Shown here: positions 5,895-16,459 of the stretch, piece by piece
Layout: each line of letters opens with the position of its first letter
How positions within the stretch are numbered: the stretch's first letter is position 1
Source: Thermodesulfobacteriota bacterium
GTDB taxonomy: Bacteria; Desulfobacterota; Desulfobacteria; Desulfobacterales; Desulfosudaceae
Direction: 5' to 3'
DNA: 64,000 nt
Assembly (NCBI GenBank): GCA_040753795.1
Contig: JBFMDX010000002.1
Span: 186,001-250,000 of the forward strand
Program-made: the position numbers and the translations under genes
Notes under the pieces: generated by a model
The model's database searches: none
What the model was told of the DNA's origin: nothing
The model's input: only the letters and a program-made list of their open reading frames with translations

Positions 5895-6009
5895 TGGTTA
5901 TTGCTTCCTGTCTTTTGTTGGTGTGGCGCTGTGGATGCTCGTTTCGGCTGGTATGGGAAGGCGGTGCCGCCGCAGCTTGCAAAAAGAGCGGTTTGATTCA
6001 TGCCCGGTA

Positions 6010-6441
6010 CTACAGCACGTAGATCTCTTCCCCGAAGGTATGGACCCAGTTCTTTTTGAGAATTTCGATAGCATCCTCGGAGCGGTCCACGCCGATGATG
6101 ACGATGGGCTGGCCGCTTTCGCCCCGGCCCAGAAAGGGATAAAGATAATGGACGTTGATGCCGCCCGCCTTCAGGGGCCTGAGCAGGGTCTGCAGGGCGC
6201 CGGGATGGTCCGGGATTTCCACCGCCAGCACCGGGTTGATCCGGACGGTATAACCCTGCCCTTTTAGGACCGCCTCGGTCTTGTCAGGGTTGTCTGAGAC
6301 AAACCGGACGGTGCTGACATCAGACCGGTCGGCCACGGAAATGGCCCGGATGTTGATGCCTTCATTGCCCAGCAGCTCGCTGATCTTGAGAAACTGGCCC
6401 GGCGTGTTATCCAGGCTCACGGAAATCTGTTTTACCAGCAT
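6010..6441 (-). CDS. Two-ACT-domain protein
   Basis: This protein of about 143 residues has two ACT regulatory domains. The first begins VKQISVSLDNTPGQFLKISE and the second NPVLAVEIPDHPGALQ; both carry the Asn/Asp-x-Pro-Gly turn that binds small ligands, usually amino acids. The ATG at 6441 is chosen over the ATG at 6459 because GGAG lies about 8 bases before it. It is the last gene of the oxidoreductase operon. In relatives, similar ACT proteins often follow 2-oxoacid:ferredoxin oxidoreductase genes, so it may sense a branched-chain or aromatic amino acid and tune that enzyme. The ligand is not predictable here. Confidence 0.88.
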   Translation of the reverse strand: MLVKQISVSLDNTPGQFLKISELLGNEGINIRAISVADRSDVSTVRFVSDNPDKTEAVLKGQGYTVRINPVLAVEIPDHPGALQTLLRPLKAGGINVHYLYPFLGRGESGQPIVIIGVDRSEDAIEILKKNWVHTFGEEIYVL

Positions 6442-6476
6442 GGACGGCTCCTTTGTCACGCGCCCGTTGTCCGCCG

Positions 6477-7016
6477 CTATCCGGCGGGAACATAGTCAAA
6501 GCCGCAGGTGAGGGCTTTTTCGTTTAACGGGATCAGTTTTTTCTTGTCCTTGAAAGCGTTGTAAAGTCCCTGGGTCAGGGCTTCCCGGGAAACCAGGCCG
6601 GTCTTTTTGACCACGGCGGCCAGCATGATCATGTTGGCGCACTTGGCGTTGCCCAGCTGGTCGGCCAGATCATTGACCGGAATCTCGATGACCTCGACGT
6701 CGCCCCGGGAGACCGGGCCGGTCGTCAGGGAAGAGTTTAAGAAGAAGATGCCGCCGGTCTGCAGCCGGTTCATGAAGCGCACTAAAGACGGTTGGTTCAT
6801 GGCCACGACGAAATCCGGGGAGGATGCTACCGGTGAGGCGATCTCTTCATCGGAGATGGCCACCGTGCAGTGGGCCGTGCCGCCGCGCACTTCGGCGCCG
6901 TAGGCGGGCAGGTAGGTGACGTTTTTCCCGTCCAGCAGGGCCGCCTGGGAGAGGTTGAGGCCCATGGAGAGAACGCCCTGGCCGCCGAAACCGGCAAAAA
7001 TCGTTTTCAGTACCAT
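6477..7016 (-). CDS. 2-oxoacid:ferredoxin oxidoreductase, gamma subunit
   Basis: The 179-residue protein opens with the gamma-subunit fingerprint FAGFGGQGVLSMG, followed by YGAEVRGGTAHCTV, both typical of the pyruvate/ketoisovalerate oxidoreductase gamma domain. With the alpha and beta subunits and ferredoxin it forms an oxygen-sensitive enzyme that oxidatively decarboxylates a 2-oxoacid to acyl-CoA, reducing ferredoxin (or the reverse, fixing CO2). The start codon is 1 base past the stop of the beta gene, so translation is probably coupled. Length is normal. Substrate class (branched-chain oxoacid or 2-oxoglutarate) is not settled by this subunit. Confidence 0.93.
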   Translation of the reverse strand: MVLKTIFAGFGGQGVLSMGLNLSQAALLDGKNVTYLPAYGAEVRGGTAHCTVAISDEEIASPVASSPDFVVAMNQPSLVRFMNRLQTGGIFFLNSSLTTGPVSRGDVEVIEIPVNDLADQLGNAKCANMIMLAAVVKKTGLVSREALTQGLYNAFKDKKKLIPLNEKALTCGFDYVPAG

Positions 7017-7017
7017 C

Positions 7018-7761
7018 TTACTTTCCTGTCGTGTCCTTGATTACGCCCAGAGGAAACACTTTGGTCATTTCCTCGTCCACCCATTTCCAGGAATCGAGAA
7101 CGCCCATTTTCCAGTTGGTCGGGCAGGGTGAGAGGATTTCCACCAGGGAATAGCCCAGGTTGTCCAGCTGCACCTGAAAGGCCTTCTGCAACGCTTTTTT
7201 GGTTTTGATGATGTTCTTGGGTGAGTTCACGGCCGTGCGTTCAATGTACACGGCGCCGTCGGTCAGGGCCAGCATCTCGCTGAGCTTGATGGGATAGCCT
7301 TCGAAGTTCTTGTCCCGGCCGAAGGGGCTGGTGGTGGTTTTCTGGCTGAGCAGGGTGGTGGGCGCCATCTGGCCGCCGGTCATGCCGTAAACGGCGTTGT
7401 TGATGAAAATGCCGGTGATCCGTTCCCCCCGGTTGGCGGCGTGAATGGTCTCGCCGGTGCCGATGGCCGAGATGTCGCCGTCGCCCTGGTAGGTAAAGAC
7501 TACCGTGTCCGGCGCGGCCCGCTTGATGCCGGTGGCTACCGCCGCTCCCCGGCCATGGGCCGATTCCACAAAATCCGTTTCAATATAGTTGTAGGCGAAC
7601 ACCGAGCATCCGGGCGGGGGCACGCCGATGGCCCGGTCGTGAATGTTCATTTCGTCCATCAGCTCGCAGACGATCCGGTGAACAATGGAGTGACCGCAGC
7701 CGGGGCAGTAATGAAAGTTGGCCCGGGTCAGGTAGCGGGGGCGCTGATAAACCTTTTCCAT
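7018..7761 (-). CDS. 2-oxoacid:ferredoxin oxidoreductase, beta (TPP-binding) subunit
   Basis: This 247-residue subunit binds thiamine diphosphate. The early YCPGCGHSIVHR segment, the cysteine in PPGCSVFAYNY, and the TPP/Mg motif GDGDISAIGTGE ending in FINNAVYGMTGGQ near residues 95-130 are all intact. SQKTTTSPFGR is also typical of the ketoisovalerate/2-oxoglutarate group rather than the long pyruvate enzymes. It sits directly between the alpha and gamma genes with 1-4 bases between reading frames. Together they form the catalytic core of the complex in the cytoplasm. Confidence 0.94.
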   Translation of the reverse strand: MEKVYQRPRYLTRANFHYCPGCGHSIVHRIVCELMDEMNIHDRAIGVPPPGCSVFAYNYIETDFVESAHGRGAAVATGIKRAAPDTVVFTYQGDGDISAIGTGETIHAANRGERITGIFINNAVYGMTGGQMAPTTLLSQKTTTSPFGRDKNFEGYPIKLSEMLALTDGAVYIERTAVNSPKNIIKTKKALQKAFQVQLDNLGYSLVEILSPCPTNWKMGVLDSWKWVDEEMTKVFPLGVIKDTTGK

Positions 7762-7765
7762 TTTT

Positions 7766-8833
7766 TTATTTGAGTCCCTGTTGATGATAATGACGGGCGA
7801 TCACCCGGGCGACTTCGCTGGGCGCCGGAATGATGCCGCCGGGGCGTCCGTAGAAATCAATCCGGCGGTCACCGTTCAAGGAGAGCCTGACGTCTTCGAT
7901 CATCTGGCCCATGTTCATTTCAAACACCAGAATGCCCTTGACCCGCTCGGCCGCCGCTCGCAGGGCTTTGTCGGGGAAAGGCCAGAGGGTGACCGGCCGG
8001 AACAGGCCGACCTTCATGCCGCCGGCGCGCACTTCCTTGATGGCGCCCTTGGCGATCCGGGCCGAGGCGCCGAAGGCCACCACCAGCAGCTCGGCGTCGT
8101 CGGTTAAAAAGGTGTCGGCGGCGGGCTCTTTTTCTTTAATCACCTGGTAGCGGCGGTACAGGCTCCAGTTGATTTCCTCCAGGTCGGCCGGGTTGGAGGT
8201 GAAGGACTTGACGATTTTCCGCGGCCGGCCGGAGGCGCCCCGCAGGGCGTCGGCCCGGACCGGGGGAACGGCCGGCGCTTCGCGGTCGAATTCCACCGGC
8301 TCCATCATCTGGCCCAGCATGCCGTCGCCCAGGATGAGCACCGGCATGCGGTAGGTGTCGGCCAGGTCAAAGGCCCGCATGGTCAGGTCCGCGAACTCCT
8401 GGACCGAGGCCGGCGCCAGGACGATGGTGCGGTAATCACCATGGCCGCCGCCGCGGGTGGCCTGAAAATAATCGGACTGGGCGGCGATGATGCTGCCCAG
8501 GCCGGGGCCGCCCCGGGAGATATTGACGATCACGGCCGGTAGTTCACAGGCCGCCAGGTATGAGATGCCTTCCTGCTTCAGGCTGATGCCCGGGCTGGAC
8601 GAGGAGGTCATGGTCCGCACGCCGGCCACGCTGGCGCCGTGAACCATGTTGATGGCGGCGATTTCGCTCTCCGCCTGGACAAAGGCGCAACCCGGCCGCC
8701 GGCCCAGGTTGGCGGCCATGTACTCGGTCAGTTCGTTCTGGGGGGTGATGGGATATCCGAAGTAACACTGGCATCCCGCCCGGATGGCGGCTTCGCCGAT
8801 GGCCGTGTTGCCATACATCAGTACTTTAGCCAC
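7766..8833 (-). CDS. vorB: 2-oxoacid:ferredoxin oxidoreductase, alpha subunit (VorB-like)
   Basis: The protein of about 355 residues resembles the VorB group usually annotated as 3-methyl-2-oxobutanoate (2-ketoisovalerate) ferredoxin oxidoreductase alpha subunit: GNTAIGEAAIRAGC, YFGYPITPQNEL, QAESEIAAINMVHGAS, TSSSSPGISLKQEGISY, RGGPGLG, QATRGGGHGDYR. The GTG at 8833 is taken as start. It overlaps the ferredoxin stop by 8 bases, and the encoded VAKVLMYGNTAIG matches the usual N-terminus. A longer open frame upstream simply reads through the ferredoxin gene in another frame. A 2-oxoglutarate enzyme (KorA) is the main alternative, since both groups share these motifs. Confidence 0.9.
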   Translation of the reverse strand: MAKVLMYGNTAIGEAAIRAGCQCYFGYPITPQNELTEYMAANLGRRPGCAFVQAESEIAAINMVHGASVAGVRTMTSSSSPGISLKQEGISYLAACELPAVIVNISRGGPGLGSIIAAQSDYFQATRGGGHGDYRTIVLAPASVQEFADLTMRAFDLADTYRMPVLILGDGMLGQMMEPVEFDREAPAVPPVRADALRGASGRPRKIVKSFTSNPADLEEINWSLYRRYQVIKEKEPAADTFLTDDAELLVVAFGASARIAKGAIKEVRAGGMKVGLFRPVTLWPFPDKALRAAAERVKGILVFEMNMGQMIEDVRLSLNGDRRIDFYGRPGGIIPAPSEVARVIARHYHQQGLK

Positions 8834-9062
8834 GATACACCTCGATGGCGGCTTCCGGGCAGACCAGGGCGCAGGTGGCGCAGCCCGTGCAGGCGTCCTT
8901 GTCCACGCAGGCCGCGGTCGCGTAGCCGCTGGCGTTGATATACCCGGAAATGGCGAGACAGCTTTTGGGGCAGAAATAAACACACATGCCGCAGCCTTTG
9001 CAGAAGGCCTGGTCGATTTCGACAACGCCCTTTTTCCGGGTTTTGCTTTTAGTCTCCGTCAT
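8826..9062 (-). CDS. 2[4Fe-4S] ferredoxin subunit of the oxidoreductase
   Basis: This 78-residue protein contains two full cluster motifs: CKGCGMCVYFCPKSC and CTGCATCALVCPEAA. Each gives C-x2-C-x2-C-x3-C, so two [4Fe-4S] clusters are expected. It is the delta subunit or dedicated electron acceptor of the complex. The ATG at 9062 (MTETKSKTRKKG) is chosen over the upstream ATG at 9116 because the intervening residues look non-coding and the family starts this way. It is the first gene of the oxidoreductase set and its stop overlaps the alpha start. Confidence 0.92.
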   Translation of the reverse strand: MTETKSKTRKKGVVEIDQAFCKGCGMCVYFCPKSCLAISGYINASGYATAACVDKDACTGCATCALVCPEAAIEVYRG

Positions 9063-9103
9063 GAATTCCGCCGCCGTATGCTTACCGGTTGATAAAAAAA
9101 AGT

Positions 9104-9134
9104 ACTCTACTCCCAACTACCCGATGCCTGTCAA
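9104..9134 (-). promoter_or_regulatory. Possible promoter before the ferredoxin/oxidoreductase genes
   Basis: On the minus strand TTGACA (9129-9134) is followed 19 bases later by TAGAGT (9104-9109), or 17 bases later by AGTAGA. The -35 is perfect and the -10 is weak. It lies in the 84-base gap after the NifS-like gene, so the oxidoreductase genes may also be transcribed independently of nifU-nifS. Confidence 0.3.
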
Positions 9135-9146
9135 GGGAAAAGCGGG

Positions 9147-10313
9147 CTACCGGTTCTTGTACAGCGGTGAAATCGCCCGCAGGGACTCCACGATGTGCTT
9201 GAGGGATTTCAAGAATCCCGTGATGTCCGCCTCGGTGTTTTCCACGCCGAGGGTGATGACCAGGGTGCCCTGGGCGTCGGCGTGATCCAGCCCGATGGCC
9301 ATGAGTACATGGGAGGCCCGCAGGGAACCGGTGGCGCAGGCCGAACGGGTCGAAACGGTAAACCCCTCATCATCGAGCATCAGCATGATGCTTTCCCCTT
9401 CAATATATTTGGGGGACAGGGAGACCAGGTGGGGCAGGCCGTTATCCGGGTCGCCGTTGATAAAGTATTCGTCAATATAATTGGGCAGTTCGGTAAGAAG
9501 AAGTTTCTGGAGGCGTTTAAAATGGGCCAGTCGCTCCGGCAGGTGCTTCCGGGCCAGGTCCGCGGCCGTGCCCAGGCCGATGATGCCGATGAGATTTTCC
9601 GTGCCGGCCCGGCGGTTTTTCTCCTGGACTCCGCCGTCTAAAATCGGCCAGACGTTGGTGCCCCGGCGGATGTAGAGACCGCCCACGCCGGTGGGGCCGT
9701 AGAAGGGGTTGGAGGCAAAGCTCAGCAGGTCGACCCCCAGGTCCTGGACGTCGACAGGCACGACGCCGACGGAGTCCACGGCGTCGGTATGCAGCAGCAC
9801 CTTTTTCTCCCGGCAGACGGCGGCGATCTCTTTAATGGGCTGAATGGTTCCGATCTCGTTGTTGCTGTGCATGATGGAGACCAGGATGGTGTCGTCCTTG
9901 ATGGCCCGGGCCACTTCCTCGGGGCTGACCCGGCCCTTCTTGTCCACGGATACGGAGGTCGTTTTAAACCCCTGCTGCAGCAGTCGCTTGATGCTGCGGT
10001 TGACGGCGTTGTGTTCGATGTTGGAGGTGATGATGTGGCGGCCTTTCTGGGCATTGGCCATGGCCACGCCCTTGATGGCGTGGTTGACCGATTCGGTGCC
10101 GCCGGAGGTGAAGACGATTTCCGTGGGATACTGGCAGTTAATCAGGCCGGCCACGCATTCTCGCGCTTTGTCCAGGGCTTCGGAGGCGCGCTCCCCCGCC
10201 ATGTTCTGGCTGGAGGGGTTGCCCAGCGTGCCCCGGATGGCATTGATCATGGCCTCCTGGACTTCGGGCAGCAGCTGACTGGCGGATATATGATCCAGAT
10301 TGATTTTACTCAT
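9147..10313 (-). CDS. NifS/IscS-like cysteine desulfurase homologue lacking the PLP lysine
   Basis: The 388-residue protein follows the NifS/IscS fold throughout: LDHISASQ, GNPSSQN, FTSGGTESVNHAIKG, SNIEHNAV, SIMHSNNEIGTIQPI, HTDAVDSVG, RRAGTENL. The mobile-loop cysteine is C326 (RSACATGS). However, the usual Ser-x-His-Lys segment that carries the Schiff-base lysine reads SFASNPFYGP here, with N202-P203 in place of His-Lys. The codons (AAC CCC) are unambiguous. Such a protein should not bind PLP covalently and may have little desulfurase activity. From memory, the Archaeoglobus fulgidus IscS also lacks this lysine and still complexes IscU. It lies 18 bases after the NifU-like gene, so a role in iron-sulfur assembly (scaffold partner, sulfide-fed) is inferred. 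Confidence 0.9.
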   Translation of the reverse strand: MSKINLDHISASQLLPEVQEAMINAIRGTLGNPSSQNMAGERASEALDKARECVAGLINCQYPTEIVFTSGGTESVNHAIKGVAMANAQKGRHIITSNIEHNAVNRSIKRLLQQGFKTTSVSVDKKGRVSPEEVARAIKDDTILVSIMHSNNEIGTIQPIKEIAAVCREKKVLLHTDAVDSVGVVPVDVQDLGVDLLSFASNPFYGPTGVGGLYIRRGTNVWPILDGGVQEKNRRAGTENLIGIIGLGTAADLARKHLPERLAHFKRLQKLLLTELPNYIDEYFINGDPDNGLPHLVSLSPKYIEGESIMLMLDDEGFTVSTRSACATGSLRASHVLMAIGLDHADAQGTLVITLGVENTEADITGFLKSLKHIVESLRAISPLYKNR

Positions 10314-10331
10314 GACAAACTCCGTGCGAAA

Positions 10332-10847
10332 TTAGTGCTCTTCTTCGATTTCCGACAGGCAGGCTTTGCAGAACTTGGCGTCCTTGTCCACTTCCGAGTC
10401 GCAATAGGGGCAGTGACAGCCGCCGTCCTCGTGGGAGTGTTCGTGCTTTTCCTGGCGTTCCTCCTCCCGGACAATGCCCGCCTTCTTATCCTCATAATTC
10501 TTGATGGCCATCTGCAGGGCGTCGGCGCCCAGGTTGGAGCAGTGCAGCTTGTTCTTGGGCAGTCCCTCGAGGGCGTCGGCCACATCCTTGTTGGTGATTT
10601 TTTTGGCTTCCTCGATGGTCTTTCCCTTGGCCAGCTCGGTCAGCATGCTGGAAACGGCGATGGCCGATCCGCAGCCGAAGGTCTGGAACTTGATGTCCTG
10701 GATGCGCTCGTCCTCAATTTTGAGGTAAATGGTCATCATATCCCCGCAGAGGGGGTTGCCGACTTCGCCGACGCCGTCGGGATTTTCGATCTCGCCGACA
10801 TTGCGCGGGTTTCTGAAATGATCCATGACGGTTTTGGAATATAACAT
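10332..10847 (-). CDS. NifU/IscU-type iron-sulfur cluster scaffold with C-terminal zinc-ribbon-like tail
   Basis: Residues 1-125 are an IscU/NifU scaffold: YSKTVMDHFRNPRNVG, then the three cluster cysteines in GNPLCGD, TFGCGSAIA and LHCSNLG, with the conserved Asp after the first. This domain assembles [2Fe-2S]/[4Fe-4S] clusters and passes them to apoproteins. Residues 135-171 add a charged histidine-rich linker (EHSHEDGGCHCPYC) and a four-cysteine tail (C-P-Y-C ... C-K-A-C) that looks like a small zinc ribbon instead of the Nfu domain of classical NifU. It leads the operon with a good GGAGAAGG ribosome site and precedes the lysine-less NifS homologue. Confidence 0.92.
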   Translation of the reverse strand: MLYSKTVMDHFRNPRNVGEIENPDGVGEVGNPLCGDMMTIYLKIEDERIQDIKFQTFGCGSAIAVSSMLTELAKGKTIEEAKKITNKDVADALEGLPKNKLHCSNLGADALQMAIKNYEDKKAGIVREEERQEKHEHSHEDGGCHCPYCDSEVDKDAKFCKACLSEIEEEH

Positions 10848-10903
10848 GGTCCTTCTCCTGATATTCTGTTGACTGGATACCGTTATCCCGTTAAACGCAG
10901 CTT

Positions 10904-10932
10904 ATATTGTGATGCCGGAAGGTTATTGTCAA
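10904..10932 (-). promoter_or_regulatory. Possible promoter of the nifU-nifS operon
   Basis: On the minus strand a perfect TTGACA (10927-10932) is followed by an AT-rich segment, with CAATAT (10904-10909) at a 17-base spacing. The leader to the NifU start would be about 50 bases. The -10 is poor, and no IscR site was recognised. Confidence 0.38.
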
Positions 10933-11011
10933 TCGAAATCCCGCCCGACAGCCATTTTCATCGTCGATGACGTCCAGGGGGAGTTTGGCGCTGATCATAC
11001 CTGACGGATTT

Positions 11012-12016
11012 TTAATCGCGCGGTTCATTTGTGTCATGCCCCTGAAAGATGATCCGGCTGCCTTCGGACTCAAAGCAAAAGGGTACGTGAATCAGGTGTT
11101 TTAATGTTTCCAGCACCGCCTTCTGGCTTTCCGGCGGGACAAAAAGGAGAAGAAAGCCGCCGCCGCCGGCGCCCACGATTTTTCCCCCGATGGCCCCGGC
11201 CTGGCGGGACAAGAGGTAAAGCCGGTCAATATCGGGGGTGGACACGTCCGGGCTGAGCTGGCGCTTGGCCATCCAGGCCTCGTGCAGCAGATCGCCGAAG
11301 CGATTAAGGTCGCCGTTGTCGGTCAGAAAAGAGATTCCCGTGTCTACCATCCGGCCCATCTGACGCAGGAGCGGGCCCCGGTCTTTCAGGGTTTTGACGT
11401 AACTTCCGGCCACGTCCGAGGCCGTTCGCCGGATACCGGTATAGAACAGCATCAGGTGACGGTTCAGCTCTTCCGCCCGGGCTTTGGGCAGGGACAGGGG
11501 CAGGAGGTCGATTTGGCCGGAGGGGTGAAAATCGATCCGGTTCAAACCGCCGACGGCCACGGAAAACTGATCCTGGGAACCGACCGTTTCCCGGATCATT
11601 TCCTGTTCGATATGGATGCTTTCCATGGCCAGTTGCCGGGCATCCGGCGCTTTTCCCCGCAGGGCGTAAAGCGCGTGCAGCAGGCCGACCGTAAAAGACG
11701 AGCTTGATCCCATGCCGCTTCTGGCCGGCAGGTCGCCGTTATGATGGATTTCGACGCCCTTCCGTTGATTTAAAAAACGAAGGGTTTCCCGGACCGCGGG
11801 ATGGCGGATCTCTTCAAACGTTTGACACAACTCGATATTCGAATAAACAATCCGCAGCCGGTGCTCAAAAAACGGCGGCAGATAACGACAGAAAATCCAG
11901 CAGTATTTATCGATGGACGTGGCCAGTACGCTACCGCCTTCGGCCCGATACCATTCCGGGTAATCGGTGCCGCCCCCGAAAAAGGAGATTCGAAACGGTG
12001 TTCGGCTGATGATCAT
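11012..12016 (-). CDS. GHMP-family sugar kinase (heptose-7-phosphate kinase-like)
   Basis: The 334-residue protein has GHMP kinase motifs: the N-terminal RTPFRISFFGGGTDYPEWY, the phosphate-binding PARSGMGSSSSFTVG near residue 100, and the C-terminal GGKIVGAGGGGFLL. These match the group that includes D-glycero-D-manno-heptose 7-phosphate kinase (HddA) and L-fucose kinase-like enzymes, which phosphorylate C1 of a sugar. The ATG at 12016 overlaps the nucleotidyltransferase stop (ATGA), so a longer in-frame extension upstream is rejected. With the next two genes it forms a sugar activation unit. The exact sugar is uncertain. Confidence 0.9.
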   Translation of the reverse strand: MIISRTPFRISFFGGGTDYPEWYRAEGGSVLATSIDKYCWIFCRYLPPFFEHRLRIVYSNIELCQTFEEIRHPAVRETLRFLNQRKGVEIHHNGDLPARSGMGSSSSFTVGLLHALYALRGKAPDARQLAMESIHIEQEMIRETVGSQDQFSVAVGGLNRIDFHPSGQIDLLPLSLPKARAEELNRHLMLFYTGIRRTASDVAGSYVKTLKDRGPLLRQMGRMVDTGISFLTDNGDLNRFGDLLHEAWMAKRQLSPDVSTPDIDRLYLLSRQAGAIGGKIVGAGGGGFLLLFVPPESQKAVLETLKHLIHVPFCFESEGSRIIFQGHDTNEPRD

Positions 12017-12735
12017 GGCTGTCCACCCAGGTTCGCGAAAAAGGCCGGAGCCTTCAGGAAAGATTCCCTGGTGCCGATGTCGATGAAGGCATCGTGCGTC
12101 GCCCATCCGGCCAGCCGGCTTCCGGCCAGCGCCGGAAAGATATCTGTTTCCAGGGAGCAGGCGGTGTCCCGGGGGATAGTCTCCACCAGCCGCTGGCGAA
12201 TGAGATAAATTCCGGCGTTGATCAGCCCCGGTCGGCTATCCGCCGTTTTTTCACTAAATGACATTATAACACCTGCCGAATCGGCCTTTACCCGGCCGTA
12301 ACGGCCGGTATCCGCCACCCGTGTCAGCACAAGGCCCGCGTCCGCGGAATGGCCCTGAAACCAGGTAAAAAACCTTTCCAGATCCGTATGGCAGTAAGAG
12401 TCTCCGTTTAACACCAGCACCGGGTCCGACTGCAGGAGATCCCGGGCATGACCCAGGGCCCCGGCGGTTCCCAGGGGCGATTCTTCCTGCGAATAAGCCA
12501 GCCTCAAGGCGCCGTGCCGGTCCCCCAGGGCTTCCCGGACCAGCCGGCCGAGATAACCCGTACACATGACCACGCGCCGGATCCCGAAATGTTCCAGCCG
12601 GTCCAGCAGGATGCGGACAAACGGTCTGCCGCTGACTTCCGCCAGGGCCTTGGGGATATCCGGCAGGGTATCGGCAAGGCGGGTTCCCCGTCCGCCGGCC
12701 AGAACGACCGCCGTAGTGCGTGAGCGCGGGTTCAT
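12013..12735 (-). CDS. Sugar-1-phosphate nucleotidyltransferase (HddC/RmlA-like)
   Basis: The 240-residue protein begins with the nucleotide-binding signature VVLAGGRGTRLADTLPDIPK, followed by the metal-binding LVLNGDSY (about residue 110) and a later FIDIGTRESF. These are typical of the short nucleotidyltransferases that make GDP- or dTDP-sugars, including D-glycero-alpha-D-manno-heptose-1-phosphate guanylyltransferase. Sequence PLGTAGALGHA is conserved in the sugar-binding loop. It lies 8 bases after the epimerase stop and overlaps the kinase by 4 bases, indicating one transcript. The pairing with a GHMP kinase favours a heptose or similar sugar. Confidence 0.92.
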   Translation of the reverse strand: MNPRSRTTAVVLAGGRGTRLADTLPDIPKALAEVSGRPFVRILLDRLEHFGIRRVVMCTGYLGRLVREALGDRHGALRLAYSQEESPLGTAGALGHARDLLQSDPVLVLNGDSYCHTDLERFFTWFQGHSADAGLVLTRVADTGRYGRVKADSAGVIMSFSEKTADSRPGLINAGIYLIRQRLVETIPRDTACSLETDIFPALAGSRLAGWATHDAFIDIGTRESFLKAPAFFANLGGQP

Positions 12736-12743
12736 CGTATCGG

Positions 12744-13688
<945 letters not shown>

Positions 13689-13855
13689 TTATCTCCTGCC
13701 GACCTAAATGCCATATAATGGCTGGAATATCCACATAATTTTATGACAGCCGGGCCGCCTTTCCCCGGTCGGGGTTGAGCGCCGGCCGCATTTATAATAA
13801 GATGATGCCCGTTATCTATTTATTGGCGGATCGCCATCATCTTTCCGGGGGCGCC

Positions 13856-14452
13856 ATGCGGAAAAAAGAGCTGATTGATTTTGAGGAGCGGATTAAGACG
13901 CTTTTTGAAAACGGAGAAATACGGGCTCCCGTCCATCTGTCGGGCGGGAACGAAGACACCCTGATTGAAATATTCAGGGACTATCATGAGGGGGACTGGA
14001 TTTTTTCCACCTGGCGGAACCACTACCACTGGCTCCTGTCCGGACGGGATCCGCGGGAACTCGAACGGCAGATCCTGGCCGGGGACTCCATGTCGGTTTT
14101 CGATGACCGGTTTTTCACCTCGTCCATTGTCGGCGGCAACGCGCCCATTGCTCTGGGCGTTGCCCTGGCCATCAGGCTGAAGGGAAACAGCGCCGGCAAA
14201 GACGGGGCCCACCCCCGTGTCTGGTGCTTTCTGGGCGACATGGCCGCTTCCGGGGGCCTGGCCGGAGAATGCATCCGGTATGCGCAAGGACACGATCTGC
14301 CGGTTACGTATGTCATCGAAGACAATGGCCTGTCCGTGACCACGGATACCGGCAGGGCCTGGGGGAAGGGGAAAAAGAAAAAGTCCCGCCGCTACGAATA
14401 CAAACGAAAGTACCCCCATGCCGGGACGGGCAAACATGTCAAGTTCGATTAA
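13856..14452 (+). CDS. Compact TPP-binding subunit (E1-alpha/transketolase PP domain)
   Basis: About 198 residues from the ATG at 13856 (MRKKELIDFE). The TPP/Mg motif is visible as FLGDMAASGGLAGE ... VIEDNGLS near residues 123-160, and DDRFFTSSIVGGNAPIALGVALA matches the E1-alpha core. The protein ends soon after this motif in a Lys/Arg/Tyr-rich tail, so it is far shorter than pyruvate dehydrogenase E1-alpha (about 330-360 residues). An in-frame start at 13775 would add 27 residues with no family similarity. No E2 or E3 gene is nearby, so it probably acts as a carboligase or decarboxylase on an oxoacid or sugar, not in a dehydrogenase complex. It forms an operon with the next two genes. Confidence 0.85.
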   Translation: MRKKELIDFEERIKTLFENGEIRAPVHLSGGNEDTLIEIFRDYHEGDWIFSTWRNHYHWLLSGRDPRELERQILAGDSMSVFDDRFFTSSIVGGNAPIALGVALAIRLKGNSAGKDGAHPRVWCFLGDMAASGGLAGECIRYAQGHDLPVTYVIEDNGLSVTTDTGRAWGKGKKKKSRRYEYKRKYPHAGTGKHVKFD

Positions 14453-14456
14453 GAAG

Positions 14457-14978
14457 ATGATGACCTACAAAGACTGCCTGGTTCATGAGATGAACACCCT
14501 GGCGGAAAACCCGCGGGTCTTTTTTCTGGGCCAGCAGGTGGCTGAGGGGGATTTTTACGGCACCCTGAAAGATATCCCTTCTGACCGGCGGATTGAAATG
14601 CCGGTGGCCGAGGAAATGCAGATGGGAATCAGCATCGGTATGGCGCTGGAAGGGTTGTGCCCGGTTTCCATCTATCAGCGCATGGATTTTCTGCCCCGGG
14701 CCATGGACCAGATCGTCAACCATTTGAATCTCATTGAGCGCCTTTCCAAGGGGAGATTTTCTCCCAAGGTGATCATCCGGACCACCATCGGCGCCACCAA
14801 ACCTTTACACCCCGGGCTTCAGCACGCCAAGGACCTGATCAAGGGGTTTCAGTCCATGGTGGATTTCCCCGTGCTGGACCTGAAAACCCAAAAGGACATC
14901 GCCGCCGGCTATAAACTGGCGCGGGAGTCGGCCCGTTCCATCATGCTGGTGGAGCGGCAGGAACTTTACGATATATAG
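14457..14978 (+). CDS. Compact TPP-enzyme partner subunit (E1-beta PYR domain)
   Basis: About 173 residues covering only the pyrimidine-binding domain of E1-beta/transketolase. MTYKDCLVHEMN at the start, FFLGQQVAEGDFYG, and the conserved activating glutamate in EMPVAEEMQMGISIGMALEG are visible. MDFLPRAMDQIVNH and a GLQHAKD segment follow the family. The C-terminal transketolase domain, normally another 130-150 residues, is absent. The start at 14457 lies 4 bases past the alpha stop; ATGs at 14436 and 14460 are alternatives. Alpha and beta together would make a minimal two-domain TPP enzyme. The radical SAM gene follows after 5 bases. Confidence 0.85.
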   Translation: MMTYKDCLVHEMNTLAENPRVFFLGQQVAEGDFYGTLKDIPSDRRIEMPVAEEMQMGISIGMALEGLCPVSIYQRMDFLPRAMDQIVNHLNLIERLSKGRFSPKVIIRTTIGATKPLHPGLQHAKDLIKGFQSMVDFPVLDLKTQKDIAAGYKLARESARSIMLVERQELYDI

Positions 14979-14983
14979 GTAAC

Positions 14984-16459
14984 ATGACCGACCTGATTCT
15001 CATCAATCCCGGCAACAGGAAACAGGCCTACGGCAGCCTGGCCGAAAGTCTGGCCGGCGTCGAACCGCCCCTGATGATGGCGCTTCTGGCGGCGTATCTC
15101 CGGGAGAAAGGGTTTTCCGTATCCATCATTGATGCTGAAGCCGAGGGCCTGGACGCCGATCAGACGGCGGATATAATTGCACGGCATGCCCCCAGGGCCG
15201 TGGGCATCGGCGCCATCGGCGCCAATCCTTCGGCCTCCTCAACCCCCAAGATGACGGCAATCCGCCCGTTGTTAAATCGCATCAAAGGCCGGAACCTGCC
15301 CTGCAAAACGGTTTTGTTCGGCATTCATTCTTCGGCCCTTCCGGAAAGAACACTCCGGGAAGAGGCGGTCGATTTTGTCGTGCGCGGAGAAGTCTTTTAT
15401 CCCGTGGAACAGCTGCTGCGTATGCTTCTGTCCGGAGAAGACGCGGCTACCATTAACGGGCTCTGCCTCCTGCGGAACGATTGTTTTGTCGACAATGGCC
15501 GTGCGGATGTGGTCGAAGACCTGGACAGCCTGCCGTTGCCGGCCTGGGACCTGCTGCCCATGGCAAAATACCGGGCCCATAACTGGCACTGCCTTGATGA
15601 TGTCTCCCGCCGTTCGCCTTACGGCGTTATTTACACCAGCCTGGGGTGCCCCTTTCATTGCGATTACTGCAATATTCACGAGATGTACGGCGGCCATCCC
15701 GGGATTCGTTTCCGCAGCCCCGGCCGGGTGCTGGAGGATATCGACCGGCTGTATCAGGAATACAAGATTTGCCATCTGAAAATCATGGATGAGCTTTTCG
15801 TCATCAATGAAAACCGGGTAATGGAAATATGCGACCTGCTGATTGAGCGCGACTACGGACTGAATATATGGGCTTATGCCCGGGTGGACACCGTAACCGG
15901 AAAAGTTCTGAAAAAATTAAAACAGGCCGGTGTCAACTGGCTGGCCTTCGGAATTGAAGCAGGAGCCGACGCCGTGCGGCAGGGGGTGTCCAAGGGGCGG
16001 TTTGACGGAGACAGGATCCGGGACGCCGTGGCCAAGGCCCATGGGGCCGGGATCAACGTTTTGGGCAATTTCATGTTCGGCCTGCCGGATGACGATATGG
16101 ATACGATGGGAGAAACGCTGGCCCTGGCCCGGGAGCTGGAATGCGAGTATGCCAATTTTTACACTACCATGGCCTATCCGGGCTCGGCGCTCTATGAGGA
16201 CGCCGTGACCCGCGGCCTGCCCCTTCCCCGGACCTGGGGCGGTTTTGCCCAGCTTTCTCCCGAGGCAATGCCGCTGCCGACAAAGCACTTGACCGCCGCT
16301 GAAGTTTTGCGTTTCCGGGACGACGCTTTCGCGTCATATTTCAGCGCGCCGTCATATCTTGCCATGATCGAAAAGAAGTTCGGCCCCCAGGCCGTTGTTC
16401 ACATCCGCCGTATGCTGTCGCTTAAGCTGAGACGGGATATTCTGTCCGGCGGAGGATAA
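14984..16459 (+). CDS. B12-binding-type radical SAM enzyme (TPP operon)
   Basis: The 491-residue protein has an N-terminal B12-binding-type Rossmann domain (LILINPGNR, PPLMMALLAAYLREKGFSV, VGIGAIGAN) without the DxHxxG motif, as is common in this class. The radical SAM domain begins at C222-x3-C226-x2-C229 (LGCPFHCDYC), followed by WAYARVDTV, FGIEAGAD and FGLPDDDMDTM. Class members such as BchE and HpnP-like enzymes do methylations, cyclisations or other C-C chemistry on lipids, tetrapyrroles or sugars. It is third in an operon with the two TPP subunits, so it may modify the TPP enzyme's product or substrate. That link is inferred. Confidence 0.93.
   Translation: MTDLILINPGNRKQAYGSLAESLAGVEPPLMMALLAAYLREKGFSVSIIDAEAEGLDADQTADIIARHAPRAVGIGAIGANPSASSTPKMTAIRPLLNRIKGRNLPCKTVLFGIHSSALPERTLREEAVDFVVRGEVFYPVEQLLRMLLSGEDAATINGLCLLRNDCFVDNGRADVVEDLDSLPLPAWDLLPMAKYRAHNWHCLDDVSRRSPYGVIYTSLGCPFHCDYCNIHEMYGGHPGIRFRSPGRVLEDIDRLYQEYKICHLKIMDELFVINENRVMEICDLLIERDYGLNIWAYARVDTVTGKVLKKLKQAGVNWLAFGIEAGADAVRQGVSKGRFDGDRIRDAVAKAHGAGINVLGNFMFGLPDDDMDTMGETLALARELECEYANFYTTMAYPGSALYEDAVTRGLPLPRTWGGFAQLSPEAMPLPTKHLTAAEVLRFRDDAFASYFSAPSYLAMIEKKFGPQAVVHIRRMLSLKLRRDILSGGG

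Follow-up and report, generated by a model that had tools for sequence, protein, structure and literature searches.

A NifS/IscS-like protein without its catalytic lysine, encoded beside an IscU-type scaffold in Thermodesulfobacteriota: a candidate non-catalytic partner in iron-sulfur cluster assembly

The gene pair and its altered active site

What does a homologue of the cysteine desulfurases do once the lysine that should hold its pyridoxal 5'-phosphate (PLP) cofactor has been replaced? This question is raised by two genes in a 64,000-nucleotide stretch of a Thermodesulfobacteriota genome (GenBank assembly GCA_040753795.1, contig JBFMDX010000002.1, positions 186,001 to 250,000), called the window below. 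On its minus strand, a gene for an IscU/NifU-type scaffold is followed after 18 bases by a gene for a NifS/IscS-like protein without the PLP lysine, and both frames are open. The NifS-like protein is probably a non-catalytic member of the NifS/IscS fold that serves as a dedicated partner of the upstream scaffold, in the manner of Archaeoglobus fulgidus IscS. We assign this reading a probability of about 0.55, because the equivalents of the catalytic Lys, His, Gln and Arg were lost together while the loop cysteine, the fold, the scaffold gene and purifying selection were kept. The features of the pair, in window coordinates, are as follows.

9147..10313, minus strand: NifS/IscS-like protein without the PLP lysine, 388 amino acids (Aminotran_5 1.1e-68; TIGR03402 435.6 bits)
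9258..9260, minus strand: codon of Val352, equivalent of Escherichia coli IscS Arg354 (alignment; residue number from PMC9978102)
9336..9338, minus strand: codon of Cys326, equivalent of the catalytic loop Cys328 (sequence and alignment)
9705..9710, minus strand: codons of Asn202-Pro203, at the His-Lys site of desulfurases (sequence and alignments)
9774..9776, minus strand: codon of Asp180, equivalent of E. coli IscS Gln183 (alignment)
10314..10331, no strand: 18-base gap between the scaffold gene and the NifS-like gene (map of open reading frames)
10332..10847, minus strand: IscU/NifU-type scaffold, 171 amino acids, with three cluster cysteines and Asp36 (TIGR03419, NifU_N, best PDB match 4eb5_C)
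10359..10418, minus strand: zinc-ribbon-like C-terminal tail of the scaffold, with C144, C146, C149, C160 and C163 (Zn_Ribbon_1 and pattern counts)

Aminotran_5 and a structural model place the window protein in the class V aminotransferases with a NifS/IscS fold. Its score against TIGR03402 (NifS equivalog) lies below the cut-off of 530.75 bits, as does that of the intact copy L003 from the same genome (467.0 bits); a further copy, L002, reaches 630.2 bits. Residues 198-207 read SFASNPFYGP, and alignment places Asp, Ala, Asn, Pro and Val at the positions of E. coli IscS Gln183, Ser203, His205, Lys206 and Arg354. We take Ser203 and His205 to be contacts of the PLP phosphate, and Arg354 is presumably a substrate-binding residue. 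The His-Lys pair and the equivalents of Gln183 and Arg354 that mark a NifS/IscS desulfurase are missing; the pocket residues His101, Asn152, Asp177 and Thr73 are kept in the alignment. The scaffold scores 204.8 bits against TIGR03419 (cut-off 187.9) and matches NifU_N at E 2e-51, with Cys34, Asp36, Cys59 and Cys103 present at the cluster site. The initial annotation of this locus had reported Asn202-Pro203 for His-Lys, the retained Cys326 and a scaffold with three cluster cysteines 18 bases away, all of which the sequence confirms. Its statement that most PLP-site residues are kept applies to the four pocket residues just named and fails for the five replaced positions.

Variants of E. coli IscS are described in PMC9978102, where K206A, H104Q and Q183E have no desulfurase activity, K206A retains some PLP and the mild change R354K leaves the enzyme active. 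The closest described parallel is A. fulgidus IscS, which is reported to be inactive as a desulfurase and to supply a cysteine ligand to the IscU cluster (PMC7585200). The comparison with this protein made in the initial annotation stands: in A. fulgidus IscS (PDB 4eb5, 4eb7, 4hvk, 4r5f) the same four sites are replaced, Gln, His, Lys and Arg by Asp, Asn, Ala and Leu, and the pocket His, Asn and Asp and the loop cysteine are kept. The two proteins share the lost lysine, the retained loop cysteine and an IscU-type partner, and the best PDB sequence match of the window scaffold is 4eb5 chain C, the scaffold of the A. fulgidus IscS-IscU complex. They differ in that the A. fulgidus protein is archaeal and approximately 44% identical to the window protein, and its aligned scaffold has no CxxC-CxxC tail, unlike that of the window.

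A structure was predicted from 15 orthologues with a mean predicted local distance difference test (pLDDT) score of 83.2 and a predicted template modelling (pTM) score of 0.85; the cysteine loop 324-333 (pLDDT below 50) and residues 229-238 are of low confidence. Compared with the PDB, the model retrieved NFS1, IscS and NifS structures with template modelling (TM) scores of 0.83-0.92 by query length, and its best matches were NFS1 and IscS structures including A. fulgidus IscS (TM 0.89-0.91 by query length). The model has the fold of IscS, a result that cannot tell one function from another. By sequence, the best PDB match of the window protein is the lysine-bearing desulfurase 9wep, together with related entries.

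Conservation and spread of the lysine-less group

A first survey of 58 genomes, including the window's own, detected full-length orthologues with 65-74% identity in 14 others and a truncated one in G052, and the remaining NifS matches reach at most 46% identity. All 15 orthologues have the lysine replaced and a NifU-type scaffold gene directly upstream. In a scan of 84,980 species genomes 173 relatives were found, and the titles among the best 80 of these name Desulfobacterales, Desulfobacteraceae, Desulfohalobiaceae, Deltaproteobacteria and similar groups. Within the phylum, 100 of 395 genomes match the window protein at E 1e-100; when the best match per genome was read (second copies in G076 and G218 being left out), at least 86 carry a lysine-less protein and 14 a lysine-bearing one only. 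The figure of 86 is a lower bound set by this threshold, below which further lysine-less types occur. A second, bacterial case beside A. fulgidus, as had been proposed, therefore understates the matter: the bacterial form is present in at least 86 of 395 genomes, and IscS1 of Methanosarcina acetivorans is also lysine-less according to PMC7585200.

For residue comparisons 239 loci were used, the window's own left out. They comprise 182 lysine-less loci (166 distinct sequences) and 57 lysine-bearing ones, a ratio that is not a population frequency as the lysine-less sets were picked by similarity to the window protein. The alignment of homologues that the initial annotation had asked for shows the loss of His-Lys to be recurrent, mostly beside a scaffold gene. 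All 57 lysine-bearing loci keep the equivalents of Lys, His205, Gln183 and Arg354 together. The lysine-less loci all lack both the Lys and the Gln183 equivalent, and 181 of 182 lack His205 (L226 keeps the His); the Arg354 equivalent occurs in 0 of the 180 that are readable at this position, L021 ending at a contig edge and L108 having an X. Among the 239 loci there is no intermediate that has a single one of Lys, Gln and Arg. Lysine is likewise found in 0 of 149 loci with at least 50% identity to the window protein, and the nearest lysine-bearing locus has 47.5%. In two NifS-like sequences, L258 and L250 (G119), the lysine is replaced by Leu or Met and the Arg by Thr.

What has been kept is as consistent as what has been lost. 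Of 181 lysine-less loci readable at the loop, 180 have its cysteine. Once identical rows and rows shorter than 340 amino acids had been taken out, the set comprised 129 sequences of the window clade (n1), 37 lysine-less ones from outside it (n2) and 57 with the lysine; here the cysteine is found in 128/128 readable n1 and 37/37 n2 rows. His101 and Asp177 are invariant throughout, that is in 166 distinct lysine-less and all lysine-bearing rows; Asn152 is kept in 129/129 n1 and 17/37 n2 rows and Thr73 in 127/129 n1 rows. Position 202 is Asn in all 129 n1 rows. Beside the cysteine, position 323 is Arg or Lys in 128/128 readable n1 rows, and position 332, where 45 of 57 lysine-bearing rows have Glu, is occupied by Arg or Gln in n1 and by Lys in 37/37 n2 rows. 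Every readable n1 row also keeps Ala325, the equivalent of E. coli A327, and the 15 aligned full-length sequences (window protein and 14 orthologues) all have Ser-Pro-Leu close to the C-terminus. In E. coli IscS, IscU binding is lost when the C-terminus is deleted and is weakened by A327V, a change next to the cysteine (PMC2854127). Median ratios of nonsynonymous to synonymous substitution (dN/dS) were obtained from pairs with 80-98.5% protein identity and enough synonymous change; they amount to 0.099 for n1 (71 pairs), 0.067 for n2 (30 pairs) and 0.096 for lysine-bearing genes (8 pairs). The lysine-less genes are thus working genes, since their dN/dS of about 0.1 resembles that of the lysine-bearing ones.

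Linkage to scaffold genes was counted for loci flanked by 700 bases or more on each side. A scaffold gene lies within 1.2 kb of 145/157 lysine-less loci (125 upstream, 20 downstream) and of 23/32 lysine-bearing ones. Among 149 scaffolds that neighbour distinct lysine-less proteins, all readable rows contain Cys34, Cys59, Cys103 and Asp36, and 132 of the 149 carry a C-terminal CxxC-CxxC pattern, as opposed to 0 of 25 scaffolds next to lysine-bearing NifS. The pattern occurs mainly in upstream scaffolds (137/142 versus 10/23 downstream, duplicates included). On the window scaffold the Pfam model Zn_Ribbon_1 matches with E 2.4e-4 and 21.3 bits, below its gathering score of 25, so that the tail is described here as zinc-ribbon-like. 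No description of a zinc-ribbon-tailed scaffold was found in open-licence PMC papers.

A tree of 53 rows, calculated with the trait columns left out, places the lysine-less proteins of the phylum in one group (support 100/99) that also holds the lysine-bearing 9wep, placed there by unstarred branches. In the best tree, A. fulgidus IscS sits with lysine-bearing proteins. The approximately unbiased (AU) test rejected neither a lysine-less clade that includes A. fulgidus IscS (p 0.33) nor a lysine-less clade without 9wep inside the phylum (p 0.36). As 9wep nests in the lysine-less group, more than one loss of the lysine is possible.

Sulfur supply and competing roles

The sulfide-rich cell that the initial annotation had assumed is in keeping with a dsrA match in the window's genome. 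Across the phylum, dsrA (TIGR02064, E 1e-30) was detected in 190 of 395 genomes, taken to be the same 395 as in the lysine-less search because number and identifiers agree. It is present in 71/86 genomes with the lysine-less protein versus 119/309 others (Fisher 2e-13) and, counted by genus, in 53/61 versus 63/185, which is an association only, in a set defined by closeness to the window protein and with kinship handled by the genus counts alone.

The window's genome (4.75 Mb in 41 contigs, 99.76% complete) was searched for a second, intact IscS or SufS and two further NifS-type genes with 42-43% identity to the window protein were found. Both L002 and L003 keep Lys, His, Gln and Arg and are intact NifS. 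L002 belongs to a homologous pair: it is 42% identical to the window protein, follows a NifU gene and precedes a serine acetyltransferase gene. It differs from the window pair in keeping SGHK, Gln and Arg and in the BFD and C-terminal NifU domains that its NifU has in addition to NifU_N. L003 lies before a formamidopyrimidine-DNA glycosylase gene. A family-model search gave no match to SufB or SUFBD_core in this genome. The lysine-less pair is not the sole system here, as two intact NifS are present. The same holds for the first survey, in which all 20 further NifS copies read from the 14 orthologue-bearing genomes have the lysine, with at least one per genome; in lysine-less genomes surveyed later, 14 of 20 further copies that were read have it and 6 do not.

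A different situation was met in G263, which is 99% complete with 1% contamination and has a dsrA match. The lysine-less protein is its only NifS-type match, and no other NifS/SufS-type protein and no SUFBD_core (SufB/D) was found in a search of this genome. Its other strong Aminotran_5 match (149 bits) is a phosphoserine transaminase (NF003764 475.7 bits, cut-off 253), and NifU_N detects the partner scaffold and, weakly, one further protein (65 bits). Because G263 shows no other NifS/SufS-type protein and no SufB/D, the zinc-ribbon IscU and the lysine-less IscS might tentatively be regarded as a complete iron-sulfur (Fe-S) assembly system, fed by sulfide and free of a desulfurase, that is the main or only one in some sulfate-reducing bacteria; we hold this extended version to be possible and well short of even odds. 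G308 (95% complete) has two NifS matches, both lysine-less; a gap in its assembly is likely, as the congeneric G101 has a lysine-bearing third copy.

A course of action can be outlined for the window pair. As in the A. fulgidus IscS-IscU complex, a dimer of the window protein would bind two scaffold molecules, and Cys326 would extend into the site on the scaffold, where it would be an additional ligand or a thiol carrier. The cluster would be built from iron and the free sulfide of sulfate reduction, not from cysteine. Two basic residues near Cys326, Arg323 and Arg332, could help to hold the negatively charged sulfide or the nascent cluster, and the zinc ribbon may act as a docking or metal-sensing tail. 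The initial annotation had suggested a structural or sulfide-relay partner of the scaffold rather than a desulfurase. A partner without desulfurase activity is still the best reading, catalytic residues beyond the lysine being lost as well; sulfide as the sulfur source, and with it a sulfide relay, is what we infer.

Several observations weigh against a sulfide-fed, non-catalytic partner. Of the 85 other lysine-less genomes, 83 have at least two NifS-type matches (1e-15), the exceptions being G263 and G066, which is only 85% complete; G263 is a single genome and the sole member of its family compared, and thus offers a strong lead and not proof. The two intact NifS of the window's genome could feed this scaffold sulfur in trans. 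A dsrA match is missing from 15 of the 86 lysine-less genomes, some of them incomplete, and shared ancestry is corrected for only via the counts by genus. Two loci depart from the rule of the loop cysteine: the lysine-less L166 (G337:C160:34301-35416) has a gap over the loop and is still one open frame, and the more distant lysine-less L258 (G081:C4:156670-157833) has a Lys aligned at the cysteine position. A ligand may still bind the pocket, because the conservation of His101 and Asp177 (in all lysine-less sequences) and of Asn152 and Thr73 (in the window clade) roughly equals that of the cysteine. Data on activity, PLP, binding or sulfur source for bacterial members were not found in open-licence PMC papers.

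The strongest competitor leaves the protein without catalysis of its own and changes the task of its cysteine. Cys326 would take a persulfide from TusA, DsrE or an intact NifS and hand the sulfur to the scaffold, as a relay and not as a cluster ligand. E. coli IscS does bind TusA (PMC2854127), intact NifS copies are retained in the window's genome, and TusA-like genes, recognised by a motif pattern, stand beside 8/157 lysine-less and 0/32 lysine-bearing loci, the TusA-like, Rrf2 and DsrE2-like neighbours of L018 and L191 being confirmed by family models. These counts are too few for a difference and provide a lead only; none of the eight TusA-linked loci belongs to the window's clade (42-48% identity), and the open reading frames of window positions 6000-15000 include none that was recognised as TusA- or DsrE-like. 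Such a relay is rather improbable for the window protein. Somewhat less probable is that PLP, or a ligand related to it, is still bound with no Schiff base formed, and that the protein regulates the scaffold or serves as its decoy, or else forms the silent half of heterodimers with intact NifS. The invariance of His101 and Asp177 in 166 distinct lysine-less sequences, the presence of Asn152 throughout the window clade and the residual PLP of E. coli IscS K206A (PMC9978102) would fit this role. It is opposed by the loss of the His205 and Gln183 equivalents, by the retention of Asn152 in just 17/37 n2 rows, by the protein's own scaffold partner gene and by G263, which shows no intact NifS-type partner. 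A desulfurase that still works, through another lysine or with non-covalent PLP, would account for the kept fold and loop cysteine, and we consider it very unlikely: the equivalents of Lys, His, Gln and Arg have disappeared together, K206A by itself inactivates E. coli IscS (PMC9978102), and A. fulgidus IscS, in which these positions are also replaced, reportedly lacks activity (PMC7585200). A sequencing error or a decaying pseudogene, suggested by the unusual motif alone, can practically be dismissed in view of open frames in all 15 full-length first-survey sequences including the window, 166 distinct lysine-less sequences among 182 loci from independent assemblies and a dN/dS of about 0.1.

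Neighbouring genes, related systems and significance

Behind the pair, window positions 6010-9116 on the minus strand encode a ferredoxin-type open reading frame, a VorB-type alpha subunit with beta and gamma subunits, and a protein with an ACT domain, and the pair may be co-transcribed with these genes. A linkage to 2-oxoacid:ferredoxin oxidoreductase genes, the kind present there, was considered and not used, as it was seen within 2.5 kb of 5/181 lysine-less versus 0/37 lysine-bearing loci (Fisher p 0.59). Gene arrangements at more distant loci were noted on their own account. L171 and L191 have a row of lysine-less nifS, scaffold, DsrE2-like and TusA-like genes, and L181, L188, L192, L193 and L226 have a TusA-like gene by motif, a possible sulfur-carrier link. 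L018 (G007), L026 (G046), L244, L245, L247 and L259 form a second lysine-less type, in which the cysteine loop has NTGSACASKALK; in L018 and L026, which come from genomes of the same order, the NifS-like gene is flanked by a TusA-like gene on one side and by one for an Rrf2-type regulator on the other, and a scaffold gene lies behind.

Among described systems, IscS1 of the archaeal methanogen M. acetivorans resembles the window protein by description only, as a lysine-less IscS that possibly acts like A. fulgidus IscS (PMC7585200). The MIS system (MisS-MisU) is likewise a two-gene pair of an IscS-like and an IscU-like protein with no carriers (PMC12192291, PMC12442378); it has a cysteine desulfurase, whereas the window pair, as judged from its residues, has the scaffold, has lost the desulfurase residues and carries a zinc-ribbon-like tail. 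SMS (SmsC-SmsB), a minimal scaffold system with sulfide as its sulfur source, sets a precedent for cluster formation in which no desulfurase takes part (PMC12192291); its scaffold is unrelated to that of the window, whose genome has no SufB/SUFBD_core match. Sulfide is also the donor in Methanococcus maripaludis, by a route described as undefined (PMC7585200, PMC8351635, PMC10500019), and SufBC of M. acetivorans is dispensable with sulfide as with cysteine (PMC10500019). A lysine-less IscS is already known from two archaea; no report of the lysine-less bacterial clade was found in open-licence PMC papers, and the bacterial group with its zinc-ribbon scaffold is apparently unreported.

The finding is larger than first stated: a zinc-ribbon scaffold accompanies a conserved group of proteins, and most of the bacteria concerned have dsrA. 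Annotation by homology could mislabel such proteins as cysteine desulfurases, because the best family matches of the window protein are desulfurase models. For the question of how sulfur is supplied to Fe-S clusters in anaerobes that live in sulfide, these conserved bacterial look-alikes of desulfurases, with their cysteine loop and scaffold, provide a concrete candidate, and Fe-S clusters may be built from sulfide in these bacteria.

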